From Dysgonomonas sp. 25 (lineage in GTDB: Bacteria > Bacteroidota > Bacteroidia > Bacteroidales > Dysgonomonadaceae): a DNA stretch of 64,000 bases. Shown piece after piece: positions 3,853 through 61,708 of this stretch. Positions within the stretch are counted from its first letter, which is position 1; each line of letters opens with the position of its first letter. Location of the stretch: assembly GCF_010501075.1 (NCBI RefSeq), contig NZ_QVMN01000005.1, positions 133,714 through 197,713 of the forward strand, in the 5' to 3' direction. Both the position numbers and the translations under genes were made by a program. The notes beneath the pieces are model-generated. The model was not told the origin of the DNA. It worked only from the letters and a program-made list of their open reading frames with translations, and did no database searches.

Positions 3853-3906
3853 AGTCGTTTAGATTTAATAAAAAGTAGCTGTAAAGATAAAAAAAACAGT
3901 TCAGAA

Positions 3907-3936
3907 TTTGGCAGATTGAATTTTTTTATATCTTTG
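3907..3936 (+). promoter_or_regulatory. trp operon promoter (Bacteroidetes type)
   Basis: TTTG at 3907-3910, an 18-nt spacer, and TATCTTTG at 3929-3936 match the Bacteroidetes -33/-7 consensus (TTTG ... TAnnTTTG). It stands 21 nt before the trp leader peptide ATG. The same 18-nt spacing occurs at the promoter at 42472-42501. Confidence 0.8.
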
Positions 3937-3957
3937 TAATATCAAAAAGATAATAGA

Positions 3958-4017
3958 ATGCAATTTCAATTAGTAAATATATATTGGTGGTGGCGCTTAC
4001 GAAACAAAAAGTCGTGA
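3958..4017 (+). CDS. trpL: trp operon leader peptide (19 aa, Trp-Trp-Trp)
   Basis: The frame reads MQFQLVNIYWWWRLRNKKS followed by TGA. Three consecutive TGG codons lie at 3985-3993. Trp is a rare residue, so a WWW run in a short translated leader just after a promoter and just before a terminator is diagnostic of ribosome-mediated attenuation. The stop codon (4015-4017) lies inside the antiterminator strand. The peptide itself probably has no function; its translation senses charged tRNA-Trp. Confidence 0.9.
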   Translation: MQFQLVNIYWWWRLRNKKS

Positions 4018-4089
4018 GTTTATTGCTGCGTATTTACACAATGATATAAGAATACTAAGCCTATCGTAACTCACGGTAGGCTTTTTTCT
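4011..4089 (+). promoter_or_regulatory. trp attenuator: competing antiterminator and terminator
   Basis: Terminator: AAGCCTATCGT (4057-4067) pairs with ACGGTAGGCTT (4073-4083), loop AACTC, followed by a T-rich run. Competing antiterminator: GTCGTGAGTT (4011-4020) pairs with AACTCACGGT (4068-4077), eight Watson-Crick plus two G-U pairs, which uses the terminator loop and half of its 3' arm. A ribosome stalled on the WWW codons would leave 4011-4020 free and allow read-through. A ribosome at the stop codon (4015-4017) would cover that strand and let the terminator form. Sequence pairing is seen directly; the switching is inferred. Confidence 0.88.
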
Positions 4090-4110
4090 TGTTAATATCA
4101 TAAAAACGCT

Positions 4111-4160
4111 CTTTACTCGTAACTTGTAACTGCCTGAAAGGCGAAGTAACTCGTAACTAA
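4111..4160 (+). repeat. 7-nt-period intergenic tract, inverted pair
   Basis: Units of the type TAACTCG/TAACTTG repeat with a 7-nt period around a short hairpin (CTGCCTGAAAGGCGAAG). A nearly identical arrangement occurs at 30263-30298. It lies between the trp attenuator and trpB, so it is within the trp mRNA leader. Confidence 0.75.
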
Positions 4161-4175
4161 TAAAATATAATTAAA

Positions 4176-5366
4176 ATGGGAAAATTCGATGTTGATGAAA
4201 ATGGTTTTTACGGAGATTTCGGCGGTGCCTATATCCCCGAGATACTCTACGACAATGTAGAAAACCTGAAAAATAATTACCTGAAAATACTGGAAGAGCC
4301 GTCTTTTCAGCAGGAGTACCGCGATTTGTTGCGCGACTATGCGGGGCGTCCGTCGCCGCTGTATCTGGCAAAAAGGCTGTCGGAAAGGTATGGTTGCAAA
4401 ATCTATCTCAAGCGCGAAGACCTCAACCATACAGGCTCGCACAAAATCAACAATGCGCTGGGGCAGATTCTCGTTGCCCGCCGCATGGGCAAAACCCGCA
4501 TCATTGCCGAAACGGGTGCAGGGCAGCACGGCGTGGCTACGGCAACCGTCTGTGCGCTGATGAATATGGAATGTATCGTCTACATGGGCAAAACGGACGT
4601 GGAGCGGCAGGCATTGAATGTGCAGAAGATGGAGATGCTGGGGGCGAAAGTCGTACCCGTTACCAGCGGCAATATGACGCTGAAAGATGCGACCAACGAG
4701 GCTATCCGCGACTGGTGCTGTAATCCGGCTGATACGTTCTATATCATCGGCTCAACGATTGGTCCGCATCCTTATCCCGATATGGTAGCCCGCCTGCAAT
4801 CGGTTATCAGCGAAGAAATACGCCACCAACTGAAAGAGAAGGAGGGACGTGAAACGCCCGACTACCTCGTGGCTTGCGTGGGTGGCGGTAGCAATGCTGC
4901 CGGAACGATTTACCATTTTGTGGACGAGCCGCAGGTAAAAATCATCCTTGCCGAAGCAGGAGGAAAAGGTGTAGATACAGGAGAGTCGGCGGCAACTATC
5001 CACCTCGGCAGGCTGGGTATTATTCACGGTTGCAAGACATTGATAATGCAATCGGAAGACGGACAAATAGAAGAGCCGTATTCTATCTCGGCGGGACTGG
5101 ATTATCCGGGCATCGGGCCTGTGCATGCCTATCATGCCAGCATCGGGCGCACCGATGTAGTTGCCGTGAACGACGATGAGGCTATGGAAGCTGCCTTCGA
5201 ACTGACACGCTTGGAGGGAATTATTCCGGCTATCGAATCGGCTCACGCCTTGGGAGCGCTCAATCATAAGCAATTCAAACCAGATGATGTGGTCGTGCTT
5301 TGCCTCTCGGGGCGCGGCGATAAGGATATGGAGACGTTTATACAATATAAAGCTATTAGCTGTTAG
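4176..5366 (+). CDS. trpB: Tryptophan synthase beta chain
   Basis: This 396-residue PLP enzyme condenses indole with L-serine to give L-tryptophan, the last step of the pathway, acting with TrpA. The PLP lysine is in the motif HTGSHKINN (Lys about 90), and the phosphate-binding loop CVGGGSNAAG lies near residue 230. Length matches the standard TrpB1 class. It is the first trp structural gene after the attenuator, separated from trpE by a REP-like repeat. In most Bacteroidales the order trpB-E-G-D-C-F-A is contiguous; here trpA sits 10 kb downstream. Confidence 0.98.
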   Translation: MGKFDVDENGFYGDFGGAYIPEILYDNVENLKNNYLKILEEPSFQQEYRDLLRDYAGRPSPLYLAKRLSERYGCKIYLKREDLNHTGSHKINNALGQILVARRMGKTRIIAETGAGQHGVATATVCALMNMECIVYMGKTDVERQALNVQKMEMLGAKVVPVTSGNMTLKDATNEAIRDWCCNPADTFYIIGSTIGPHPYPDMVARLQSVISEEIRHQLKEKEGRETPDYLVACVGGGSNAAGTIYHFVDEPQVKIILAEAGGKGVDTGESAATIHLGRLGIIHGCKTLIMQSEDGQIEEPYSISAGLDYPGIGPVHAYHASIGRTDVVAVNDDEAMEAAFELTRLEGIIPAIESAHALGALNHKQFKPDDVVVLCLSGRGDKDMETFIQYKAISC

Positions 5367-5457: not shown

Positions 5458-6864
5458 ATGAAGACAAGTCTTACTGTTCAAACTAAAACCCTCCTTGCCG
5501 ACCTGCAAACGCCGGTAGGGTTATACCTGAAAGTGAGGGATGTATATCCCGAATCCGCTTTGCTGGAAAGCTCCGATTATCACGGCGGAGAGGATAGCTA
5601 TTCCTTTATAGGCGTAGATCCCATTGCCCGCTTCAAGGTAGAAGACAGGACGATAACCCGTTCCTATCCCGATAATACCTTCGAAACGGAGCTACTCGGC
5701 GAAGATGAAAAGTTAGTGGATAATTTCCAGCAATTTATACAGGAGTTCGACGTAAAAGGCGGAGCAGGTGCTAAATTTAACGGCTTTTTCGGTTATACCT
5801 CGTACGATGCTATCCGCTATTTCGAGGCGGTAGATCCCGTGAACGAGAAGAAAAGCAACGCCGATATTCCCGAGTTTTATTATATCCTCTATCGTTTTAC
5901 GCTGGCTATCAACCACCTGAAAAACGAGTTGGTGATAGTAGAAAATATTGTCGGCGACGACCAACCGAAGGTGGAAGAATTAGAAGCCATCTTGGCCAAT
6001 AATAACTTTGCCTCGTACAATTTCACGGCTATCGGCGACGAAGTGTCGCAAATAACAGATGACGAGCATAAGGGGATGATAAACAAGGGAATCGCTCACT
6101 GCAAGCGCGGCGATGTGTTCCAGATTGTCCTTTCGCGCTGTTTCTCGCAACGCTTTGCAGGCGACGACTTCAAAGTGTACCGCTCGTTGCGATCCATCAA
6201 CCCGTCGCCCTATCTCTTTTATTTCGATTTCGGCTCGTACCGCATCTTCGGTTCTTCGCCCGAGACGCATTGCCGCATACACAAAGGCAAAGCTTATATC
6301 GATCCCATCGCAGGAACGTATTTCCGTACGGGTGACGACGAAAAAGACCGCATCCTCTCCGAAAACCTGCTGAAAGACGAGAAAGAAAATGCCGAGCATG
6401 TGATGCTGGTCGATTTGGCACGCAACGACCTCAGCCGCAACTGCCACAATGTGCAAGTCGAATTTTACAAAAATGTCCAGTTCTATTCGCACGTTATCCA
6501 TCTGGTTTCGCGGGTGAGCGGCATTGTCAATGCAGACCGCAGCAGCATATCGGTCTATGCCGATACCTTTCCCGCCGGAACGCTTTCGGGTGCGCCCAAA
6601 GTGCGTGCAATGCAGCTGATTCGCGACATCGAACATCAGATGCGCGGCGTATATGGCGGCTGCATCGGCTATATCGGTTTCGATGGCGAACTGAATCAGG
6701 CGATTACGATACGTACGTTTCTCAGCAAAGACAATACGCTGTATTATCAGGCGGGCGGAGGCATTGTTGCCAAATCCAATCCCGATACCGAAGTGCTGGA
6801 AGTGAAAAATAAATTGGGCGCTCTGACGAAAGCTGTTAAATTTGCAGATAAACTAAAAAACTAA
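5458..6864 (+). CDS. trpE: Anthranilate synthase component I
   Basis: This 468-residue protein converts chorismate and ammonia (from TrpG) to anthranilate. The Trp feedback-site motif LLES is at residues 35-38. The chorismate-binding domain fills the C-terminal half, with GSSPETH near 265, PIAGTYFRTG near 285, DLARNDLSR near 320 and the closing QAGGGIVAKSNPDTE near 440. The LLES motif suggests allosteric inhibition by Trp in addition to attenuation. It is followed after 6 nt by an unrelated small gene rather than by trpG. Confidence 0.97.
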   Translation: MKTSLTVQTKTLLADLQTPVGLYLKVRDVYPESALLESSDYHGGEDSYSFIGVDPIARFKVEDRTITRSYPDNTFETELLGEDEKLVDNFQQFIQEFDVKGGAGAKFNGFFGYTSYDAIRYFEAVDPVNEKKSNADIPEFYYILYRFTLAINHLKNELVIVENIVGDDQPKVEELEAILANNNFASYNFTAIGDEVSQITDDEHKGMINKGIAHCKRGDVFQIVLSRCFSQRFAGDDFKVYRSLRSINPSPYLFYFDFGSYRIFGSSPETHCRIHKGKAYIDPIAGTYFRTGDDEKDRILSENLLKDEKENAEHVMLVDLARNDLSRNCHNVQVEFYKNVQFYSHVIHLVSRVSGIVNADRSSISVYADTFPAGTLSGAPKVRAMQLIRDIEHQMRGVYGGCIGYIGFDGELNQAITIRTFLSKDNTLYYQAGGGIVAKSNPDTEVLEVKNKLGALTKAVKFADKLKN

Positions 6865-6870
6865 ACACAC

Positions 6871-7494
6871 ATGAAAAAAGCATTAATCATTATCGGAGTC
6901 ATCGTCTTAGCTGTTGCCGTCGGGTTGTACGTCTATTCGCAAGGCGGTTATCAGGATATTCACGTAGCCAAAGGCGAACATTTGGACGAGGCAGAACTTA
7001 AACCCGTAAAAGACCTGATAGATATGGAATTTGAAGGGAAGATACAGGAATACGATCTCGAATCGGACTCGACAAAAGGCTTTTTTACCAAAATATGGCA
7101 TAAATGGAACTATCAATACCCATCTAAGGTATTCTATACCGACGACGAGTATGTCTACTGGGGGCGCGTCCGGTACGACTTTTTGCGCAGCGAGGTTATA
7201 GAGCTCAACAAAACCAAAAAGGAGAAATATGAGCAGGTGATGCAGAAATTCAACCATATTACGTTGGACAAAAGCCGCGAAATATTAGCCCAATATTATA
7301 ATCAACGGCGGTTTCAGGAATCGAACGGCGACATAAAACCCTCCGCAGTTTATTTATATTGGATACAGCTCAGCGAAGGATACACTCCTGAACTGGTATT
7401 CCTGATAAGGATCGATAGCCATATATATCGTGCGACTTCCAGAAATGGGACAGAAATAGATTATATGTATGCCAGCAGCTTGACAGGTTTTTAA
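6871..7494 (+). CDS. Unknown membrane-anchored protein inside trp operon
   Basis: This 207-residue protein was not recognised. An N-terminal hydrophobic segment (about residues 4-24) is followed by a polar domain rich in Tyr, Lys and Asp, so it is probably anchored to the inner membrane with a periplasmic domain. No catalytic motif is evident. It lies 6 nt after trpE and 10 nt before trpG on the same strand, so it should be co-transcribed with the trp genes. It has no visible link to Trp synthesis. Confidence 0.8.
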   Translation: MKKALIIIGVIVLAVAVGLYVYSQGGYQDIHVAKGEHLDEAELKPVKDLIDMEFEGKIQEYDLESDSTKGFFTKIWHKWNYQYPSKVFYTDDEYVYWGRVRYDFLRSEVIELNKTKKEKYEQVMQKFNHITLDKSREILAQYYNQRRFQESNGDIKPSAVYLYWIQLSEGYTPELVFLIRIDSHIYRATSRNGTEIDYMYASSLTGF

Positions 7495-7504
7495 AAGAGA
7501 TAAC

Positions 7505-8071
7505 ATGAAGATATTAGTTTTTGACAATTACGACTCGTTCACCTATAACCTCGTTCACCTCATCCGTGAGTTTGGATATAGCGATGTAGAGGTGCACCGC
7601 AACGACAGGATAGCATTGGCGGACGTTGCCCGCTACGACAAGATAATCCTTTCGCCCGGGCCGGGCATTCCGTCCGAAGCCGGATTATTGTTGCCGCTGA
7701 TAAAGGAATATGCCGATAAAAAGCCTATCTTAGGCGTATGCCTCGGGCATCAGGCTATCGGCGAAGCATTCGGCGCGAAATTATCGAATCTGGAAGACGT
7801 CTATCATGGCGTATCCACCGAGATAAAAATCATCGAGGCCGATTATATCTTCCACGATGTGAATCCCACTATCGAAGTCGGACGTTACCATTCGTGGGTT
7901 GTCAGCCGCGAAGAGATACCTGCCTGCCTCGAGATTACCGCCGAAGACCGCAACGGGCAGATTATGGCGCTGCGCCACAAGGAATTAGATATTCATGGCG
8001 TACAGTTTCACCCCGAATCGGTTCTGACGCCGAGAGGAGCGGCTATTGTGAAGAATTTTCTGGCACACTAA
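7505..8071 (+). CDS. trpG: Anthranilate synthase component II (glutamine amidotransferase)
   Basis: This 188-residue class I glutaminase supplies ammonia to TrpE. The nucleophile is Cys79 in GVCLGHQAIG, and the partner His/Glu are in FHPESVL near residue 168. The oxyanion region PGPGIPSEAG is present at 51-60. It could also serve p-aminobenzoate synthase (PabA), as such subunits are often shared, but its place in the trp operon favours TrpG. Confidence 0.97.
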   Translation: MKILVFDNYDSFTYNLVHLIREFGYSDVEVHRNDRIALADVARYDKIILSPGPGIPSEAGLLLPLIKEYADKKPILGVCLGHQAIGEAFGAKLSNLEDVYHGVSTEIKIIEADYIFHDVNPTIEVGRYHSWVVSREEIPACLEITAEDRNGQIMALRHKELDIHGVQFHPESVLTPRGAAIVKNFLAH

Positions 8072-8083
8072 AAATAGATTGCT

Positions 8084-8868
8084 ATGAGACACTTGTTATT
8101 GCTTCTTACACTTTTGTCGACGCTCTCGCTCGCAGGGCAGGGATATGTAACCGCCGACCCCGATGGATATACCAACGTCCGCGAACTGCCCGGCTCCCGG
8201 TCGCCGCTTTTGGGACGGGTTACGGCGTGCCTATATTCTACCATCCGGAGGTCGTCTGCGGGTTCGAAGACTACGCAGAATCCGACTCCATCGTTATGGA
8301 TAACCCTGACTGGATGCCTGTCCTTATCTCCGAATATCCTTTTAAGGTGGGTTATATATACAAGAAATATCTCCATTCGCTTGATGAATTTCCTGCTCTC
8401 GGCTACGCACTCAAAAGCGATAATCAGATAGCGTTCGCCGATGAAGATATAGAGGTTATGGTAGAAACGCAGCTTTTTGATGCGACGAACCATATAGTAG
8501 AGAACGATTCCGAAGGGATATTGCTCGTAGACGGCGAACGTACTAACATAAGCGGCGATTATGAAGAATATTATGAGTTGAAGCGGGTGTCGGTAATGTA
8601 TAAAGGAAAAAAATACCAGCTTCCGGAGGTGAGGATAAATGACGTCTTCTTTCTGAATAATCCGGTGCGGGTTGAACGTTATACTCCGGAAGATGTATAT
8701 TGCCCTATCCGTGTGCAAAAAGGGATGGACGATATTTATTATCTCTCTATCAATGGGGGAGATGGCGCCGAAAGCTTCGCGGCGATATGGGTATTGAAAG
8801 ACGGAGAACTTTGCCGGCGCTATATTACCTATGTGTGTGGCGCGCCGGATTTGGATTTGGTTTTTTAG
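8084..8868 (+). pseudogene. SH3-like exported protein, frameshifted
   Basis: Two overlapping frames together make one protein of about 260 residues. The first frame (from ATG at 8084) gives a signal peptide and an SH3-type start (GYTNVRELPGS, residues about 28-38). The second frame resumes from about 8217 (YGVPIFYHPEVVCGFEDYAE) and runs to 8868. The frames join if one G is restored in the GGG of 8215-8218, so a single-base loss in a homopolymer is the simplest explanation. It could be a real mutation or a sequencing error. The distal frame has no stop codons over about 215 codons, which suggests the lesion is recent or artefactual. The function is unknown; bacterial SH3 domains often bind cell-wall or peptide ligands. 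Confidence 0.75.
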
Positions 8869-8892
8869 ATAAACTTAAAAGAAGATATTTCG

Positions 8893-10065
8893 ATGAAACA
8901 CATCCTTACATTCAAAAATGCTTTGCTCGCACTGCTTTTGCTTTGCAGTTTGCCCGCATTTTCGCAGCAGGAGACGATAACAATAGAAGGTACTGTTGTG
9001 GACGAAATGGGAGAGCCTTTAATTGGAGTTGCTGTTTATCATAAAATGGATGAAGAAACGAAAGTATATACCGACATAGATGGTAAATTTACTATTCAGT
9101 CTCCCTCACCGACCGATAATGTATTAAGATTTGATTATGTGACATTAAAAGATATAGAACTAAATGTTGCTGATGTAAAAAGCCAGCCTATAACGGTGGT
9201 TTTCGACTTTAGGGATATAAACTCTATAGAGTTTTATGCTTCCTACCCCGAGCATCGGATGCGGGAAGATGATGATGAAGCTTTCTACATCAACACTTAT
9301 AAATTTGATTTGAGGAGGAAAGAGATCGGACGTTTTGTATCATATCCAGTCCATTCGGGTAATATGGCGAAAAAAACACCTTTTGTCCCTTTCGAGAATA
9401 TCGATTATGATAAACGGAAACTGATAGTTGTCGGAAATGAAAACTTCTTCGTAGATAAAAACTTCGACCATGAACTTTTATTCCGATTAAGAGAAAACAG
9501 AGACAATGCCTTTGAATACGCCGAAGAGCAAACCGACCGATTGCAAGGAGGGCAGGACAAAATAGAAGGATATGAGTATATCGCACCCTTTCTCTACGAA
9601 AAAAATGACTATCTTTTTCTCTGCGATGAACAAAAGAATATGTCTGCTACAGGTTTACGATACAATGAGCCGCTAAAATACGTAGCGGATAATGTTTACA
9701 TATCAGCGCACCATATATATATCTTTACCCCTCATTGTTGGTACACGCGTATAAATTACAAGGGAGAGAACGGCAATTACAACGATGGCTCTTTATTTGT
9801 TTTTACAAATCTGTTGCAAAATGATTATTCAAAAGAAAAAGAATCGGACGAGTATGAAACTATAAAAGATGACCTCGGCCGAAATACCTACTACACCACC
9901 GACGGCTACCATCTGTTATATAAAAACCAGCTCATCGACAAAGGCATAAACCCGAAAAAGCTAAAAGCCGTCAATGCCCACTTTATCCGCTCGGGCGATA
10001 CCTACTATCTGAAAGAGAAGAAAATAAACAAAAAAGATATATTCATCGAAATTGTATGTCCGTAA
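8893..10065 (+). CDS. Exported protein with carboxypeptidase-like regulatory domain
   Basis: This 390-residue protein has a signal peptide ending near residue 25 (SLPAFSQ). Residues 29-105 form a CarboxypepD_reg-like beta-sandwich (IEGTVVDEMGEPLIGVAVY, with YTDIDGKFTI), the module found at the N-terminus of SusC receptors. The rest (about 110-390) is a Tyr/Asp/Lys-rich region not recognised. No TonB-dependent barrel follows, so it is not a SusC. Its base composition is more AT-rich than that of the trp genes on either side. It lies 24 nt after the frameshifted gene and 7 nt before trpD. Confidence 0.8.
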   Translation: MKHILTFKNALLALLLLCSLPAFSQQETITIEGTVVDEMGEPLIGVAVYHKMDEETKVYTDIDGKFTIQSPSPTDNVLRFDYVTLKDIELNVADVKSQPITVVFDFRDINSIEFYASYPEHRMREDDDEAFYINTYKFDLRRKEIGRFVSYPVHSGNMAKKTPFVPFENIDYDKRKLIVVGNENFFVDKNFDHELLFRLRENRDNAFEYAEEQTDRLQGGQDKIEGYEYIAPFLYEKNDYLFLCDEQKNMSATGLRYNEPLKYVADNVYISAHHIYIFTPHCWYTRINYKGENGNYNDGSLFVFTNLLQNDYSKEKESDEYETIKDDLGRNTYYTTDGYHLLYKNQLIDKGINPKKLKAVNAHFIRSGDTYYLKEKKINKKDIFIEIVCP

Positions 10066-10072
10066 AAAAAGT

Positions 10073-11071
10073 ATGAAACATATATTAAATAGACTATTCG
10101 AGCACCAGTACCTCACCCGCGACGAGGCGAGGGAAATACTGACCAAGATGTCGGCAGGCGAGTATAACGAATCGCAGATAGCCGCCTTTATGACCGTATT
10201 CCTTATGCGCAGTATCACTATCGAGGAATTCTGGGGATTTGCCGATGCCCTGCTCGAACTGCGAGCCGATGTGACGCCCCTCGCAGCCTACAATCCGATT
10301 GATATTGTGGGCACGGGAGGAGACAATAAAAATACGTTCAACATCTCCACGCTGGCATGCTTCGTGGTGGCGGCGGCAGGATATAAAGTCGCCAAACATG
10401 GCAACTACGGCGCATCCTCCGTCAGTGGTGCGTCTACCGTAATGGAGCAGCAAGGCGTAAAATTCACGAACGATGTAGGCAAACTGGAAAAATCATTAGC
10501 CGAAGCCAATATCGCCTTCCTCCATGCACCTATGTTCAACAGCGCCATGAAGGCCGTCGCCCCCGTCCGCAAAGCATTGGGCGTGCGCACGTTCTTCAAT
10601 ATGCTGGGGCCTGTCGTCAACCCCATCCGCCCCAAGCGTACCGTTCTGGGCGTATTCAACCTGAAAATGGCGCGTATGTATTTCTATACCTATCAGTTGA
10701 CCGATGTCGATTACTCCATCGTGCACAGCATCGACGGATACGACGAGGTATCGCTTACCGACGCCTTCAAGGTCGTAAGCCCGCAGGGAGAGCGCATCTA
10801 TACACCCGAACAGTTAGGCTTTCGCCGGTGCGCACAGGACGAACTGTCGGGGGGCGAAACAGCCGAAGATGCTTCGCGCATTTTCAGCGATGTCATCTAC
10901 AACAGGGCAACCGAAGCCCAGAAAAATGCGGTCGTCATCAACGCTGCCATCGCTATCAATACCATCGACCACGCCAAGCCGCTGACGGACTGCATAGCAG
11001 AGGCGCGCAAGGTGATAGAGAGCGGAAAATTAAAAGAAACCTTTGCCCGTTTTCTGGCTTTAAATAGCTAA
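10073..11071 (+). CDS. trpD: Anthranilate phosphoribosyltransferase
   Basis: This 332-residue enzyme transfers the phosphoribosyl group from PRPP to anthranilate. The PRPP-binding loop VGTGGDNKNTFNIST lies near residue 75, and KHGNYGASSVSG near 105. The ATG at 10073 (MKHILNRLFEHQYL) is chosen because it matches the usual start of the family; an upstream TTG at 10052 would overlap the preceding gene. Length is typical. Confidence 0.97.
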   Translation: MKHILNRLFEHQYLTRDEAREILTKMSAGEYNESQIAAFMTVFLMRSITIEEFWGFADALLELRADVTPLAAYNPIDIVGTGGDNKNTFNISTLACFVVAAAGYKVAKHGNYGASSVSGASTVMEQQGVKFTNDVGKLEKSLAEANIAFLHAPMFNSAMKAVAPVRKALGVRTFFNMLGPVVNPIRPKRTVLGVFNLKMARMYFYTYQLTDVDYSIVHSIDGYDEVSLTDAFKVVSPQGERIYTPEQLGFRRCAQDELSGGETAEDASRIFSDVIYNRATEAQKNAVVINAAIAINTIDHAKPLTDCIAEARKVIESGKLKETFARFLALNS

Positions 11072-11080
11072 TTTTGTAGT

Positions 11081-12220
11081 ATGAATACAGTCCCAACAAA
11101 CAATACATTGCCGCCTGCACCCAAGCCCCGAAAGAAAAAAATGTCCGGCTGCATAAAAACTTTTCTTATCGCGTTGCTTGTGGGATTCCTTGTATTTGTC
11201 GGAGTTGTTATATATGCAGTCGATTATTTTTCTTCCGGTCCGAAAAAAAGGCGCGAAGCCAAGATAAACAAGGAGTTGGCGAAAGAAGAAATTCCTTTGA
11301 AATATCAGTCGTACCAATATCTGTATGAGACCGAAAGCTCGGATGCTTTTAGTATTACGATCATAAACAGGTATTGCTCGTCAGCCTATCTCTTGCCCGA
11401 CAGCACATTGATATTGAACATCCCTTCGCATGATAGCATCAGTTATTTCTACAAAATCAATACCAGCGGAAACGTTACGGGGATTTATAAGAGTAATGAT
11501 TTGCACTTTTACGGCACTTCGCTGATGGGCTATATCGCCCCGCCGAATGAAGAGCCCGAAGAGGAAGATGTAACGGCTAATGATACCGAAAATGAGGAAG
11601 GCGGCGATCACGAGGATGACCTGAAATTGGTTACTACTGTACATTTTGTCCCACCGGTAATAAGAAAAGCCGAAACAGACTATTATTATTCCGATTGGCC
11701 GCTCACCGGAGATACGGCACTGCACCGGGTAGAATATATCGGCAGCACAGGCAAAACAGGAGATGAGATATATGATCAGTCTGATATTGTATTGATTCCC
11801 ACCGATAGAAATGCGAATAAAGAAAAAGAAAGACTTATGCACTACAACGGATCGTGGTATATGGCATCTTGCGGAAAAGAAGTAAAAAACTCCTACAAAT
11901 CACCCCTTTATAAATTATTAGAGAAGGAAAGGCTTGCATTGAAGTACAGCTATAAGAAGCAGACAAGATATTACCGGTCAATACGTGAGTACCGTATAGG
12001 AAACTGGAATTCAAGAGGTACTACTTATCATCAACCGGAATATTGGGATGTCGATTACTATTTCGACCTAAAAGCCGGACAGACGCTTATTTCGTTCAAA
12101 GTATCTGGAAGTGAGGAAAAAAGAGAAGAAAGTTATTCGTTGAGAATCTATAATCTCGGGAAATATTTTATAATAGAGGCTGGTCGCAATAAAACGTATC
12201 TTGTACGGCTTAAAAAATAG
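11081..12220 (+). CDS. Unknown single-pass membrane protein inside trp operon
   Basis: This 379-residue protein was not recognised. A Pro/Lys-rich cytoplasmic start (PPAPKPRKKK) precedes one hydrophobic segment (about residues 25-50). A long, charged domain follows, with an acidic stretch near residue 155 (EEPEEEDVTANDTENEEGG), so the topology is N-in with the main domain outside. It is AT-richer than trpD. The gene lies 9 nt after trpD and 14 nt before the MFS gene, implying co-transcription. No role in Trp metabolism is suggested by the sequence. Confidence 0.78.
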   Translation: MNTVPTNNTLPPAPKPRKKKMSGCIKTFLIALLVGFLVFVGVVIYAVDYFSSGPKKRREAKINKELAKEEIPLKYQSYQYLYETESSDAFSITIINRYCSSAYLLPDSTLILNIPSHDSISYFYKINTSGNVTGIYKSNDLHFYGTSLMGYIAPPNEEPEEEDVTANDTENEEGGDHEDDLKLVTTVHFVPPVIRKAETDYYYSDWPLTGDTALHRVEYIGSTGKTGDEIYDQSDIVLIPTDRNANKEKERLMHYNGSWYMASCGKEVKNSYKSPLYKLLEKERLALKYSYKKQTRYYRSIREYRIGNWNSRGTTYHQPEYWDVDYYFDLKAGQTLISFKVSGSEEKREESYSLRIYNLGKYFIIEAGRNKTYLVRLKK

Positions 12221-12234
12221 AAAACAGAAAAGAA

Positions 12235-13407
12235 ATGACCATCGCACCAATAACTTCTTCGTTGAAACGCATACGCTACGCCGTGTTTGCGTTCTACTTT
12301 ATGCAGGGATTATGCTTTTCCAGCTGGGCGAGCCGCATCCCCGATATTAAAAACTCGCTGGGCATGGACGATGCCGCATGGGGCACTATCCTGCTGATGA
12401 TTCCCGTGGGACAGATATGCGGGATGAGCCTTTCGGGCTTACTCGTTTCGCGCATCGGCAGCAAGCGTATACTCCCCATTGCCAATATAGGCTATGCCGC
12501 CACCCTGCTCCTCGTGGGGCTGGCAAGTAGCGAATATGCCCTTATAATGAGCCTGATAGTTTTCGGGTTCTTCGGCAACTTCTGCAATATATCGGTCAAC
12601 ACGCAGGCGGTCAACGTAGAACGTATGTACGACAAACCCATTATGGCATCCTTCCACGGCGGATGGAGTGCCGCAGGCTTGACGGGAGCGTCCATCGGGC
12701 TGCTGATGTCGTCGCTCGAAGTGAATCCTTTCATGCACTTCTGCGTAGTAGCCGCATTGGTGGTCACCAACCTCATCGTCAACCTCAAATATTTGCAGGA
12801 AGATGTAAAAGTGCAGAAATCACCCGAAGAAAGAGCTGCCCGTAAGAAGAACAAACCCGAAAAATTTCTCTTTCTGCTCGGCATAGTCGCCTTTTGCGGG
12901 ATGGCTGCCGAAGGAGCTATGTCCGACTGGAGCGGGTTGTATTTGCAGGACATCGTAGGCGTTCCCGCGCATTTGGCGCCTCTGGGACTGACAGCCTATA
13001 TGATAACGATGGCTACAGGGCGTTTCTTTGCCGACAAAGCATCGTCCCGCTTCGGGCAGAAACGCGTTGTACAGGCAGGCGGACTGTTGATTTCGGCAGG
13101 CTTGCTTCTTGCCGTTGCCTTGCCTCATGTCGTCACCACGCTGATAGCCTTTATGATTATCGGTTTCGGCACATGCAGCATCGTACCCACCGTGTATAGC
13201 GTGGCCGGCAAAAAGACGAAAATCTCCACCGGCATGGCACTCACCATCGTGTCCAGCATCAGCTTCACCGGCTTCCTGATGGGACCGCCGCTTATCGGCT
13301 ACATTTCGCATCTCACCAACCTGCGCTATTCGTATGCCTTTATCGCGCTGTTCGGTATTTGTATAATTTTGCTATCTTCACAAATCAAAGTGTTTAAGAA
13401 GGATTAG
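12235..13407 (+). CDS. Major facilitator superfamily transporter
   Basis: This 390-residue integral membrane protein shows about 12 hydrophobic segments with a polar central loop (KSPEERAARKKNKPEK near residue 195). The start FMQGLCFSSWASRIPDIKNS resembles the YbjJ-like MFS subgroup. The loop SGLLVSRIGSKR (MFS motif A variant) lies between helices 2 and 3. The substrate cannot be deduced. Its place between trpD and trpC makes export of an aromatic compound worth considering, but that is only an inference from position. Confidence 0.88.
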   Translation: MTIAPITSSLKRIRYAVFAFYFMQGLCFSSWASRIPDIKNSLGMDDAAWGTILLMIPVGQICGMSLSGLLVSRIGSKRILPIANIGYAATLLLVGLASSEYALIMSLIVFGFFGNFCNISVNTQAVNVERMYDKPIMASFHGGWSAAGLTGASIGLLMSSLEVNPFMHFCVVAALVVTNLIVNLKYLQEDVKVQKSPEERAARKKNKPEKFLFLLGIVAFCGMAAEGAMSDWSGLYLQDIVGVPAHLAPLGLTAYMITMATGRFFADKASSRFGQKRVVQAGGLLISAGLLLAVALPHVVTTLIAFMIIGFGTCSIVPTVYSVAGKKTKISTGMALTIVSSISFTGFLMGPPLIGYISHLTNLRYSYAFIALFGICIILLSSQIKVFKKD

Positions 13408-13441
13408 GCATTTTATTTACATACACTAAAAACTAATTATT

Positions 13442-14173
13442 ATGGCAAAAAGAGCATTTACATTCAAGGACGATAAATCAGACAAATTCTGGTGGATAGA
13501 ATGTGGAGGAACAGATTTTGTTGTTAATTACGGAAAAACCGGCACAGCAGGAAAATATCAAATCAAGGAATTCGATAGTGAAGAATTATGCTTGAAAGAA
13601 GCGGTAAAGATGATTGCTCAAAAACAAAAGAAAGGTTACAAAGAAGCTCCGGATTTTGACTTCGACAAACACCTTTATTTCGACGATGAAGAAATCGGCT
13701 TGCATCTGTTGACATCGCACCCGAATTTCCGCGAATATTTCACAGATGAACTATATTATAATTGTGGAGATGAAGAAGCGCCATTTGGAAGTGATGAGGG
13801 GAACGACACGCTATACGAACTTGTAGAAGCCGTCCGTAAAAAGAGTAAAGTAAATTTTGCAGGTTTCCCGCAATACCTGATTGAAAATATCTGGGGTATG
13901 ACATATATCGCTCCCGGCAAACTGGATGAGGAGACTGTAAAAGGACTGATTGAAACGGACGAAATGAACCTCACACAGAGCGATATGATAACGTATGCTT
14001 CGGCCTTCGGGCAGATAAAAATAACGGGTTATGTGGATAAATCCCTGAAAGAAGCTGGTATAATGGCTCTGCAACGGGCACAGGTGTGGGCAAAACTACA
14101 AGGATATAATTTTTCCGAAATAACGGAAATGCTGATTAAAGACTTATCGGCTTTCGAGAAATATGCCGATTAA
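13442..14173 (+). CDS. WGR domain protein
   Basis: This 243-residue protein opens with a WGR domain (about residues 5-80), a module found in PARPs and in MolR-type bacterial proteins, where it contributes to nucleic-acid or protein binding. The consensus Trp-Gly-Arg is replaced here by NYGKTGTAGK, as in many bacterial members. The remaining 160 residues are acidic and were not recognised. There is no PARP catalytic domain. It lies 34 nt after the MFS gene and 16 nt before trpC. Confidence 0.8.
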   Translation: MAKRAFTFKDDKSDKFWWIECGGTDFVVNYGKTGTAGKYQIKEFDSEELCLKEAVKMIAQKQKKGYKEAPDFDFDKHLYFDDEEIGLHLLTSHPNFREYFTDELYYNCGDEEAPFGSDEGNDTLYELVEAVRKKSKVNFAGFPQYLIENIWGMTYIAPGKLDEETVKGLIETDEMNLTQSDMITYASAFGQIKITGYVDKSLKEAGIMALQRAQVWAKLQGYNFSEITEMLIKDLSAFEKYAD

Positions 14174-14189
14174 TGCATAAAATGTCAAT

Positions 14190-14969
14190 ATGGAAAATAT
14201 TTTAGACAAGATAATAGCCAACAAGAAGAAAGAGATAGAGCAGGAAAAATCGCTTATCTCTATCGCGCAGATGGAGCAAAGCTTCACAGATGCTACCATC
14301 CGCTCTTTCCGGGAGGCGCTGGCAACATCGCCTACAGGTATCATCGCCGAGTTTAAGCGTCGATCGCCCTCGCGCGACTGGATTTTCAAGGATGCCAAAG
14401 TAGAAGATGTTATCCCCCTCTATTCGCAGAACGGGGCGGCGGCTATCTCCGTGCTGACGGATATAGACTTTTTCGGCGGCAGCCTGACCGATTTGGCGCA
14501 GGCGCGCGAACTGACTGATACCCCTCTGTTGCGGAAAGACTTTGTCGTGGACGAGTACCAACTCTATCAGGCACGGTTGTCCGAAGCGAGCGTCATTCTC
14601 TTGATTGCATCGGCACTGTCTGTCGAAGAAACCAAGCGGCTGGCATCCGAAGCGCAAAGCCTTGGGCTGGAAGTGCTGCTCGAAATACATAACGAGCAGG
14701 AATTGGGGCACATCAATGAGTACGTAGATGTAGTAGGCATCAACAACCGCAACTTGGGCACATTCGTTACCGATGTGCAGGTTTCGTTCGATTTGGGCGA
14801 CAAGATACCCGCCGAATTCCTCAAAATCTCCGAAAGCGGCATATCCGATCCGCAGACAGTGAAAGACTTGCGTCAGGCAGGATTCCGAGGTTTCCTGATG
14901 GGCGAGAATTTTATGAAAACCGCCGATCCGGGGCAGGCATTGAAGGAGTTTATAACGCAATTGATATGA
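14190..14969 (+). CDS. trpC: Indole-3-glycerol phosphate synthase
   Basis: This 259-residue (beta/alpha)8-barrel enzyme closes the indole ring from CdRP. Diagnostic motifs are AEFKRRSPSRDWIF near residue 52, LLRKDFVVDEYQ near 112, the Glu-bearing LEIHNEQEL near 158, NNRNLGTF near 183 and SESGIS near 210. It is separate from TrpF, unlike the enterobacterial TrpC-F fusion. Its stop codon overlaps the trpF start (ATGA), indicating translational coupling. Confidence 0.97.
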   Translation: MENILDKIIANKKKEIEQEKSLISIAQMEQSFTDATIRSFREALATSPTGIIAEFKRRSPSRDWIFKDAKVEDVIPLYSQNGAAAISVLTDIDFFGGSLTDLAQARELTDTPLLRKDFVVDEYQLYQARLSEASVILLIASALSVEETKRLASEAQSLGLEVLLEIHNEQELGHINEYVDVVGINNRNLGTFVTDVQVSFDLGDKIPAEFLKISESGISDPQTVKDLRQAGFRGFLMGENFMKTADPGQALKEFITQLI

Positions 14970-15598
14970 GAATAAAAGTCTGCGGGATGAGAGAGCCCGA
15001 CAATATAGAAGAACTGGCGGAATTGCCTATCGATATGATGGGGCTGATTTTCTATGAGAAATCGCCGCGATATGTAGGGAATATTTCGAAAAGTAACCGT
15101 CAGGCTATCGGCAAAGCAACTACCGAACAGGGAATAGACAGGGTAGGGGTGTTCGTGGACGAAAGCCTCATGACCATCCTTCAGGCGGTGGATAGCTATA
15201 TGCTCGACATGGTGCAGTTGCATGGCGACGAATCGCCCGATTTCTGCCGCGAGCTGAACAAAACCCTCCCCGTCATCAAGGCATTCAGCATAGCCGAAGC
15301 CGCCGATCTGGAACAGACAACCGCCTACGAAGGGCTTTTCGGCTATTTCCTATTCGATACCAAAACCCCTCAACGGGGAGGCTCCGGCCAGCAATTCGAC
15401 TGGACGCTGCTCGACCGTTACACGGGACGTACCCCTTTCCTGCTGAGCGGAGGTATATCCGTGGATGATGCGGCGGCCATCCGTGCCATAAAGCACCCTA
15501 AATTCTACGGCGTAGACCTCAACAGCCGATTCGAAGTAGAACCGGGATTAAAAGATATCAGATTACTTGAACAATTTATAAAAGCATTGAAACAATGA
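14966..15598 (+). CDS. trpF: Phosphoribosylanthranilate isomerase
   Basis: This 210-residue barrel enzyme carries out the Amadori rearrangement of PRA to CdRP. The catalytic Cys is in [10 protein letters not shown] (Cys6), and the general acid Asp is in [17 protein letters not shown] near residue 130. [10 protein letters not shown] lies near 77 and FLLSGGIS near 155. It overlaps trpC by ATGA at its start and trpA by ATGA at its end. Confidence 0.97.
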
Positions 15599-16368
15599 AC
15601 AGGATAAACGAACTATTCACCCGCAAACCGAAAAATATACTTTCTATCTATTTCACGGCGGGATTTCCGCATCTGAACGATACATGCGAAGTAATCAAAG
15701 ACTTGGAAGCCAACGGCATCGACCTGATAGAAGTCGGCATTCCTTTCTCCGACCCGATGGCCGACGGACCTACCATTCAGGAGAGCGGGACAATCGCCCT
15801 GAACAACGGTATGACGCTCAAAATCCTGTTCGATCAGCTGAAAGATATACGCCGGACGGTCAACATCCCGCTGATAATGATGGGCTACCTCAACCCGATG
15901 ATGCAATACGGGTTCGATAAGTTTTGCCGCGACTGCCAAACGGTTGGCATAGACGGGATTATCATCCCCGATTTGCCTTTCAAGGATTATATGGAGGAGT
16001 ACAAAGCCATTGCCGAGAAATATGACATCAAGATTATTATGCTCATCACGCCCGAAACTTCGGAAGAGCGTATCCGCCTCATCGACGAACATACCGACGG
16101 CTTCATCTATATGGTTTCTTCGGCGGCGACAACAGGTGCACAGAAGGATTTTGACGAACAGAAGCGAGCCTATTTCCGCAAAATCAACGGCATGAACCTC
16201 CGCAATCCGCGCCTTATCGGCTTTGGCATCTCGAACAAAGCCACCTTAGAAGCCGCCCAAGCCAATTCGAGCGGAGCCATTATCGGCAGCAAATTCATCA
16301 CCTTGCTGAAAGAATCGCCGTCGATAAAAGAGGCTGTAAGCCGCCTGAAAGAAGCGTTGAGCAAGTAG
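15595..16368 (+). CDS. trpA: Tryptophan synthase alpha chain
   Basis: This 257-residue barrel enzyme cleaves indole-3-glycerol phosphate to indole and G3P and channels indole to TrpB. Catalytic Glu46 and Asp57 are seen in [14 protein letters not shown], spaced exactly as in the enterobacterial enzyme. It is the last trp gene, far from its partner trpB. No convincing terminator was found directly after it; the next 190 bases contain only a possible promoter for the lipoprotein gene. Confidence 0.97.
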
Positions 16369-60391: not shown

Positions 60392-61708
60392 TTATTCTAC
60401 TTCGATAAACATGTGGTCGAAACTGATGGTTACTTTCTCGAACAGCCTGATGAAGCCCATTCCCAGTGCACCTTCTTCGCCACCCAATTGCAGTGTATTT
60501 TCGAGAGGAGTGGTGTCGATATAGATGTCTTTTATCTCAAAATTGTGGCTGCCTATACGCAGCGGAAGGGCAGGGTAGGTGTAGAACTGCTTGGTGTTGA
60601 CTCCTCCGTAACCGCCTGTGAGAAAGGATTCTTTCTTTCCGTCGCGTTCGATTGCCTCCTTATACCTGTGATAGTAACTGCTGTTCAATCCCGCGTTGGA
60701 GTCGCCCGTGTCTAATAGCATAATAAGCCTTTCGTTGCCCGAATATGCTTTCACGAAGAAGCTGTCGCCGGAAGTTTTCATCATATTGCGTCCTGTGGCG
60801 GGGAGCGGTGTTTTGTGAATCGGGAAAACGATTTTTCCCTTGTTTGGGAAGATTTGCACTTCTCCTGCCAGCTTCATAATGTCGGTTCCCAAAACGGCAT
60901 CGACCTTGAAGACGCTATCTACTGCGGGATTGGACGGGACGACAACCACCACCAGATTTTTTAGTATCATATCTCCTATGGCTACGCTATCCAGTATACC
61001 CATCTTGCCCATACCCGAACCTCCTGTGCCTGATACCCCCAGCGAATCGAAGGTGATTCTGACACCATAGCGGGTTGCATATTCCTCCGAAAGAAATACG
61101 CCGCCCGGGCAACCTGTGTCGAAGATGAAGCGTTCTTCTTTGCCGTTCACCGTCACAGGCACATAGGGCAGATATCCTCTGCGGATGTTCTGCTTCGATT
61201 TCAAAGACTCTATGTATAAGGGTATTGCACAATCTTGGGCAGGGCGGATGAGTTCCGTTTTCTTCTGCCCGCACATCGAATGGTAATACTTGTAGAGCGA
61301 TTGCAGGCCGTTTACCGTTTCGTCGTCGAGGTGTGGCGCTACCAGGTCGAGAAAGCTTTTAGTCTCTTCCGAGGCTTCGCAATACGCTCCCATGCGGAAG
61401 CGGATAGCGTTTTGGCACAGCAGCATATTCATTGTACTCTCGAAACCTATCTCGTCCTGATAGAACAAAATGAGCGAGTCGATAGAAGATATGGCTTCGT
61501 GTTGACGGTCAAAGACGGCATCGAGCAGCGATTGCGATAAGCATTTCAGCACGGGCGATTGCATCTCGTGTTGGAGTTGCGAATATCTTTCGTCCAGCAG
61601 GAAAAAATCGCTGGCACTGAGGGCTTCGCCTATCTGTTCGTCAGGCGATTGGGCTAAGGCACTCCCTAAAGAAAAGCACAACAGGAGCGAGAGCAGTATT
61701 CTTTTCAT
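60392..61708 (-). CDS. Exported double-DTG aspartic protease-like protein
   Basis: This 438-residue protein has a signal peptide (ending GSALAQ near residue 20), a helical N-region (about 25-165) and a pepsin/retropepsin-like part with two DTG sites: FIFDTGCPGGVFLSEEY near residue 193 and IMLLDTGDSNAGLNSSYY near 325. Two lobes, each with DTG, resemble pepsin-type architecture or a tandem retropepsin pair. It should be a periplasmic aspartic protease or an inactive relative; the presence of both Asp favours activity. Confidence 0.85.
   Translation of the reverse strand: MKRILLSLLLCFSLGSALAQSPDEQIGEALSASDFFLLDERYSQLQHEMQSPVLKCLSQSLLDAVFDRQHEAISSIDSLILFYQDEIGFESTMNMLLCQNAIRFRMGAYCEASEETKSFLDLVAPHLDDETVNGLQSLYKYYHSMCGQKKTELIRPAQDCAIPLYIESLKSKQNIRRGYLPYVPVTVNGKEERFIFDTGCPGGVFLSEEYATRYGVRITFDSLGVSGTGGSGMGKMGILDSVAIGDMILKNLVVVVVPSNPAVDSVFKVDAVLGTDIMKLAGEVQIFPNKGKIVFPIHKTPLPATGRNMMKTSGDSFFVKAYSGNERLIMLLDTGDSNAGLNSSYYHRYKEAIERDGKKESFLTGGYGGVNTKQFYTYPALPLRIGSHNFEIKDIYIDTTPLENTLQLGGEEGALGMGFIRLFEKVTISFDHMFIEVE

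Follow-up and report, generated by a model that had tools for sequence, protein, structure and literature searches.

A divergent Bacteroid-trp leader, very probably a ribosome-mediated attenuator, ahead of the trp operon of Dysgonomonas sp. 25

What decides whether the trp genes of Dysgonomonas sp. 25 are transcribed? In the window, the 64-kb (64,000-nucleotide) stretch of DNA that we analysed, a short reading frame with three adjacent Trp codons stands between a promoter and an intrinsic terminator, and the terminator lies ahead of the first structural gene of the trp operon. Judged from the sequence and from folding models, a ribosome reading those three codons very probably makes the decision. 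We consider it very likely that this leader attenuates the trp operon by means of the ribosome and that it belongs, as a divergent member, to the Bacteroid-trp family (RF01692).

The leader and its operon

The leader occupies positions 3907–4089 of the window and carries the following elements, with the basis of the assignment in brackets where it is not plain from the line itself.

3907–3936, + strand: Bacteroidota-type promoter, TTTG at 3907–3910, an 18-nt gap and TATCTTTG at 3929–3936
3958–4017, + strand: leader peptide ORF MQFQLVNIYWWWRLRNKKS, 19 codons, ATG at 3958, stop codon TGA at 4015–4017
3973–4002, + strand: segment 1, 5' strand of the predicted 1:2 hairpin, holding the Trp codons (minimum-energy fold)
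3985–3993, + strand: three adjacent Trp codons, TGG three times (read from sequence)
4011–4020, + strand: predicted antiterminator strand, over the stop codon (sequence, alignment, helix scan)
4012–4037, + strand: segment 2, 3' strand of the predicted 1:2 hairpin, overlapping the antiterminator strand (minimum-energy fold)
4057–4087, + strand: intrinsic terminator, hairpin 4057–4083 and T6 at 4082–4087 (fold, alignment)
4068–4077, + strand: predicted antiterminator target, loop 4068–4072 and start of the 3' arm 4073–4077 (sequence, alignment, helix scan)

On re-reading, the promoter, the 19-codon WWW leader, the 11-bp terminator and the 10-nt strand described in an earlier sequence-only reading all lie where it had placed them, and the stop codon (4015–4017) does fall inside 4011–4020. 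The promoter, as read from the sequence, matches TTTG/TAnnTTTG exactly. Its pattern predicts a transcription start upstream of the leader ATG, instead of the start downstream of 3990 that would have spoken against attenuation. By eye, no Shine-Dalgarno-type site is evident at the leader of this locus. The sequence TGGTGGTGG is unique on the + strand of the window, with a single − strand copy at 60946.

The terminator consists of a 5' arm (4057–4067), the loop and a 3' arm (4073–4083) that form 11 pairs, one of them G.U, with an energy of −15.2 kcal/mol (z −6.5; 0 of 200 shuffles equal). The leader as a whole folds at −36 kcal/mol (z −3.5). Its minimum-energy structure includes the 1:2 hairpin (3973–4002 with 4012–4037), so that the full leader is predicted to fold, without a ribosome, as 1:2 plus terminator. 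The leader minus the terminator (3945–4066) folds no better than shuffles (z −0.41, 70/200 equal).

Pfam matches give the operon the order trpB-trpE-trpG-trpD-trpC-trpF-trpA, with its end at 16368.

4112–4165, no strand assigned: dispersed repeat copy between the terminator and trpB (genome matches)
4176–5366, + strand: trpB, first gene of the operon (PF00291)
5458–6864, + strand: trpE (PF00425, PF04715)
7505–8071, + strand: trpG (PF00117)
10073–11071, + strand: trpD (PF00591, PF02885)
14190–14969, + strand: trpC (PF00218)
14966–15598, + strand: trpF (PF00697)
15595–16368, + strand: trpA (PF00290)

Non-trp genes break up the operon within 6871–14173; they lie at 6871–7494, 8893–10065 (with a CarboxypepD_reg domain), 11081–12220, 12235–13407 and 13442–14173, and no Pfam family matched those at 6871–7494 and 11081–12220. 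The gene upstream of the leader is on the opposite strand and transcribed away from it, so the terminator is not that of this neighbour. The repeat at 4112–4165 is ~50 bp long, contains two ACTCGTAACT copies and has 40 matches in the genome, its own copy counted (104 candidates, 40 scored). With it, the spacer before trpB measures 92 nt, vs. about 30–52 nt in Dysgonomonas-type relatives. A REP-associated transposase was considered as its source and set aside, as PF01797 has no match in the genome. The repeat is probably outside the switch.

Could the complementarity between stop codon and terminator be a coincidence? The strand at 4011–4020 and its target at 4068–4077 form 10 pairs, 8 Watson-Crick and 2 G.U. 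Eight consecutive Watson-Crick pairs anywhere in the leader arose in 42/2000 dinucleotide shuffles, 10 pairs including G.U in 61/2000, and the best duplex energy was matched by 23/500 shuffles; eight pairs near the stop codon only were found in 5/2000 dinucleotide shuffles. Taken alone, the pairing at this single locus is suggestive but only moderately unusual, and relatives were therefore needed to decide.

Conservation among relatives

We started from 110 trpB loci. Four were short of upstream DNA and 20 were duplicates over the last 150 bases, leaving 86 upstream regions, among which at least two repeat a genome with a shifted start. A leader with at least two W was found in 80/86 by script and in 83/86 after the six others had been read; the three added by reading (L020, L056, L084) either begin with GTG or have a modified Trp run, and the other three of the 86 regions (L077, L087, L090) have no leader. 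Our terminator finder worked in 79/83; the four regions where it failed (L078, L086, L093, L102) show a hairpin by eye but were left out. With identical stretches removed, 77 rows were aligned with MAFFT in an alignment (A1) that was not fitted to any structure.

Three Trp codons are present in 57/77 rows and two in 20/77. The last of them stands 16–21 nt from antiterminator column 88 in all 77 rows, and the stop codon lies 0–8 nt from that column in 75/77 (exactly 3 nt in 68/77). The remaining two rows, L016 and L074, have the stop codon 25–29 nt past column 88, where a terminating ribosome would sit further downstream. Of 76 rows that extend far enough, 72 have the promoter pattern upstream with at most one mismatch, vs. 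1.8% of letter shuffles. The putative leader peptide keeps its ORF, start codon, frame and Trp run.

The leader may also have travelled. Two Apibacter species and a Flavobacteriaceae-labelled MAG (L053, L054, L056) have a trpB that nests among Dysgonomonas-type sequences and share the same leader and terminator with them, which suggests that operon and attenuator were transferred together into these hosts.

Both halves of the predicted switch are kept in A1. Terminator pairs are formed in 99.2% of cells, 11 of the 12 pairs have changes on both sides, and several of these double changes are separate events on the TrpB tree. The antiterminator helix is paired in 93.8% of cells, vs. 16–63% when it is slid. 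Compensatory changes, which the sequence-only reading had proposed to look for in both stems, are accordingly plentiful in the terminator but not in the antiterminator, where double changes affect 2/8 pairs, a number reached by 451/500 shuffles. The second base of the stop codon pairs as G:C in 41/77 rows and as A:U in 33/77 (UGA with C, UAA with U). However, the G/A change happened about once on the TrpB tree, a quick tree with 33/74 inner branches open, and we dropped stop-codon covariation as strong evidence for that reason. Counted as events, antiterminator covariation is thin.

Because this covariation is weak, all helices between leader and terminator were scanned. The stop-codon register reached at least 6 bp in 73/77 rows, and the runner-up, the TGG repeat against the terminator 5' arm, did so in 38. 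At a threshold of at least 5 bp, the common helix targets the loop and 3' arm in 76/77 rows, and the best 5'-arm register, again from the TGG repeat, is found in 40/77. The stop-codon:terminator helix is the sole leader–terminator helix common to nearly all aligned rows. Further support comes from another Bacteroidota family, f8, in which unrelated letters again allow candidate helices between the stop-codon region and the terminator: UGGGAGG with UCUCCCG on the loop and 3' arm at L201, and AUGUGGC with GCCACAU and UGUGGCA with UGCCACG on the 5' arm and loop at L199 and L200. With conservation added, the predicted antiterminator pairing is convincing. An alignment of Bacteroidales trpB-upstream regions, proposed earlier as the way to check the leader, therefore bears it out in both respects, with the WWW/WW runs and the pairing of the stop codon with the terminator both kept.

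One earlier claim probably does not stand. The layout had been called simpler than the four-segment enterobacterial leader, but the predicted fold of this leader, like the Rfam model, includes a 1:2 hairpin that takes in the Trp codons. The antiterminator strand can alternatively pair with the stretch at and after the Trp codons, and the inner 1:2 helix is paired in 82.0% of A1 cells; on these grounds we judged a layout without segment 1 unlikely. Pair 75–89 of this hairpin is mismatched in 67/77 rows, and the pair counts cover the inner part of the stem, since in the MAFFT alignment the register of the outer part differs from lineage to lineage. Applied to a wider set (A2, 69 rows), RNAalifold recovered the terminator alone and no 1:2 hairpin.

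The Bacteroid-trp family, other known systems and rival readings

This kind of regulator is already known as the phylum's Bacteroid-trp family, and the present copy is a divergent one, missed by the public cut-off. RF01692, which Rfam describes as "tryptophan peptide leader RNA", scores 34.6 bits on this leader (E 0.019), below its cut-off of 49, and no Rfam family reaches its gathering cut-off in the 64-kb window. The match is nonetheless full-length and collinear (3938–4065, model positions 1–131 of 131), with several non-standard pairs. Among 20 orthologous leaders of relatives, chosen for spread from 80 named loci, 15 score above the cut-off. They include members of the same family (L033 with 49.9 and L035 with 50.8 bits, same genus; L043 with 57.3 bits), and five fall below (L057, L064, L091, L103, L111). 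What this leader has in common with Bacteroid-trp is the site ahead of a trp operon, the Trp-codon leader and the 1:2 hairpin. The Rfam model, by contrast, ends in the terminator 5' arm, so that terminator closure and antiterminator pairing are absent from it.

Across the phylum, RF01692 is found in 45/392 genomes at E up to 0.001, with 41 above the cut-off. This is an undercount, because the Dysgonomonas sp. 25 genome is itself missed. The best 30 phylum loci all have a WW leader (30/30), and the next gene, judged by eye from protein starts, is TrpE-like in 27 and TrpB-like in 3. In these loci the leader thus mostly precedes a trpE-like gene (27/30), whereas here the first gene is trpB.

In the literature, Weinberg et al. 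(2010, PMC2864571) list the motif as cis-regulatory in Bacteroidetes. The Bacteroid-Trp leader of Flavobacterium psychrophilum is said to resemble the E. coli trp leader in structure and to be conserved ahead of the trp operon (PMC6414381, 2019). Strong clues for leader-peptide attenuation are reported for F. psychrophilum amino-acid operons, in a section whose text does not name trp (PMC9723704), and the main text of a B. thetaiotaomicron map contains no "trp" (PMC7366714). In the parts of these sources that we consulted, we found no description of an antiterminator that captures the loop and 3' arm of the terminator; the supplement of Weinberg et al. (2010) may hold one.

The comparison with the E. 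coli trp attenuator is close in logic and different in geometry. Alike are the Trp codons, the 1:2 / 2:3 / 3:4 logic with 2:3 weaker than 3:4, and a stop codon near segment 2. In E. coli trpL, segment 3 is the terminator 5' arm, and it is this arm that is captured. Here, by contrast, the loop and 3' arm are the predicted target, and the shared helix does not follow the enterobacterial type of 2:3 pairing with the 5' arm.

To look more widely, we used a model, R1. Its 69 rows comprise 60 thinned rows of Bacteroidales type and 9 phylum loci; of the other 21 among the best 30 phylum loci, too narrow a pattern missed 20 and one was a near-copy. Searches with RF01692 and R1 found no second leader in the Dysgonomonas sp. 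25 genome. RF01692 gave one other match there (E 9.7), without a Trp leader by eye, and R1 gave 17 further matches, all at E 0.187 or more. R1 matched in 90/296 genomes at E 0.01 or less, which is not a prevalence estimate. Among the best 41 R1 rows (E up to 3.4e-5), 31, judged by eye, share the strand of trpA and lie no more than ~12 kb ahead of it; G326 does not, and 9 have no listed trpA place, including G256, which has no Trp leader. At 12 R1 places that we inspected, 9 lack a Trp leader and resemble ordinary terminators, three (L195, L199, L200) show WWW, with a trpE-like gene next, and none has a like leader for another amino acid.

Twelve further regions, less L209 and L212, which lack a WW leader, were added for an examination of helix geometry. 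In f4 (3 loci), f6 (1) and 2 of the 3 f8 loci (L199, L200, L206, L207, L208 and L210 in all), the best helix falls on the 5' arm, alone or together with the loop. In f11 (L202, L203) it falls on the loop and 3' arm, 24–27 nt upstream of the stop codon, and the f5 loci L204 and L205 show no clear pairing. Given the small number of these other-family loci, their selection through R1 matches and the shortness of most of their helices, a possible switch to 5'-arm capture is a lead, not a result. In f4 (L206, L207, L208), the Trp leader stands by eye ahead of a trpD-like gene, not trpE or trpB.

Could the same elements serve something other than attenuation? The hairpin might be a plain terminator that ends a short RNA without Trp control, its complementarity to the leader arising by chance, and at a single locus such chance is not negligible, given the 42/2000 shuffles with eight Watson-Crick pairs. 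Yet the same register recurs in 73/77 rows, the Trp codons, frame and stop position are conserved, trp-like genes come next in 30/30 phylum loci examined, and the upstream gene is transcribed away from the hairpin. We regard this reading as very improbable, and give just as little credence to a leader that senses free tryptophan through its nascent peptide, as TnaC does, and not charged tRNA. The residues beside WWW do look conserved (NTYWWWR.LQL..S), as such a sensor would lead one to expect, but the same codons build segment 1 and the antiterminator strand, and RNA pairing can explain their conservation. Moreover, the W count varies between 2 and 3, and a Symbiothrix-like group and distant families keep the Trp run but have a different tail.

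It is more improbable still that a Trp-binding protein or RNA (TRAP, a TrpR operator, a T-box or a Trp riboswitch) is in control, with the leader ORF as a bystander. Such systems govern trp operons elsewhere. However, no Rfam family is present at cut-off in the window, and of the four matches listed for 3880–4200 at E up to 10, Bacteroid-trp is the best and none is a T-box. Ribosome-mediated trp attenuation, by comparison, is well supported by the sequence and folding models.

Order of events and what it implies

Ribosome stalling, its footprints, the actual start site, termination and read-through are what we infer from these elements, in the following order. Transcription would start a few bases beyond 3936, with a ribosome beginning the leader at 3958. 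When charged tRNA-Trp is scarce, the ribosome would wait at 3985–3993, covering segment 1 and freeing 4011–4020. Once the loop and first 3'-arm bases leave the polymerase, 4011–4020 would pair with 4068–4077. With the antiterminator paired, the terminator could not close during the passage of polymerase over the T-run, so that trpB would be transcribed. When Trp is plentiful, a ribosome at the stop codon (4015–4017) would cover 4011–4020 and the terminator would form. It would also form if the ribosome were released or never started, with segment 2 held in the 1:2 hairpin. Sequence and folding model together indicate that antiterminator and terminator exclude each other, and that a ribosome stalled at the Trp codons would leave the antiterminator free. 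The original proposal, that stalling at WWW frees the antiterminator and a ribosome at the stop codon masks it, is one on which pairing, geometry and the folding model agree.

Energies constrain how this could work. Median values are −17.5 kcal/mol for 1:2, −12.4 for 2:3 and −20.0 for 3:4, and in 76/77 rows the complete RNA favours the terminator over the antiterminator; therefore, the antiterminator must act by timing (kinetic trapping). We modelled this by stepwise folding for a ribosome whose A site holds the last Trp codon and whose 3' edge is assumed to lie 12 nt beyond the first base of that codon. Folding began at this edge, and the antiterminator was counted at 5 or more pairs. The ribosome footprint values are those of E. 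coli. In this model the antiterminator is the optimum before the terminator in 74/77 rows, for a median of 7 3'-end positions. At the present locus it is optimal at 3' ends 4074–4080 and the terminator from 4081. A ribosome at the stop codon covers the strand, so that by construction the antiterminator then appears in 0/77 rows. RNA polymerase hides ~10–14 nt of RNA, and for this reason it should have left the T-run (to 4087) before the terminator wins.

A joint reading of these results is that in Bacteroidales and Flavobacteriaceae the antiterminator uses the loop as a toehold, takes loop and 3' arm and wins only briefly, while f4, f6 and part of f8 appear to have switched to the 5' arm and kept the Trp leader. 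We put the chances of this at about even. If true, the antiterminator wins only from the moment the loop emerges until the 3' arm is complete, a span of few nucleotides, which would require ribosome and polymerase to be closely timed in a phylum mostly without Shine-Dalgarno sites.

The public RF01692 cut-off misses real members, the Dysgonomonas sp. 25 leader among them. Our results support the view that the family named in 2010 is a complete attenuator, and they add its terminator and antiterminator halves. Capture of the loop and 3' arm is a concrete kinetic prediction, and conserved ribosome-timed attenuation would imply that ribosome and polymerase are close to each other at the trp operon in Bacteroidota.
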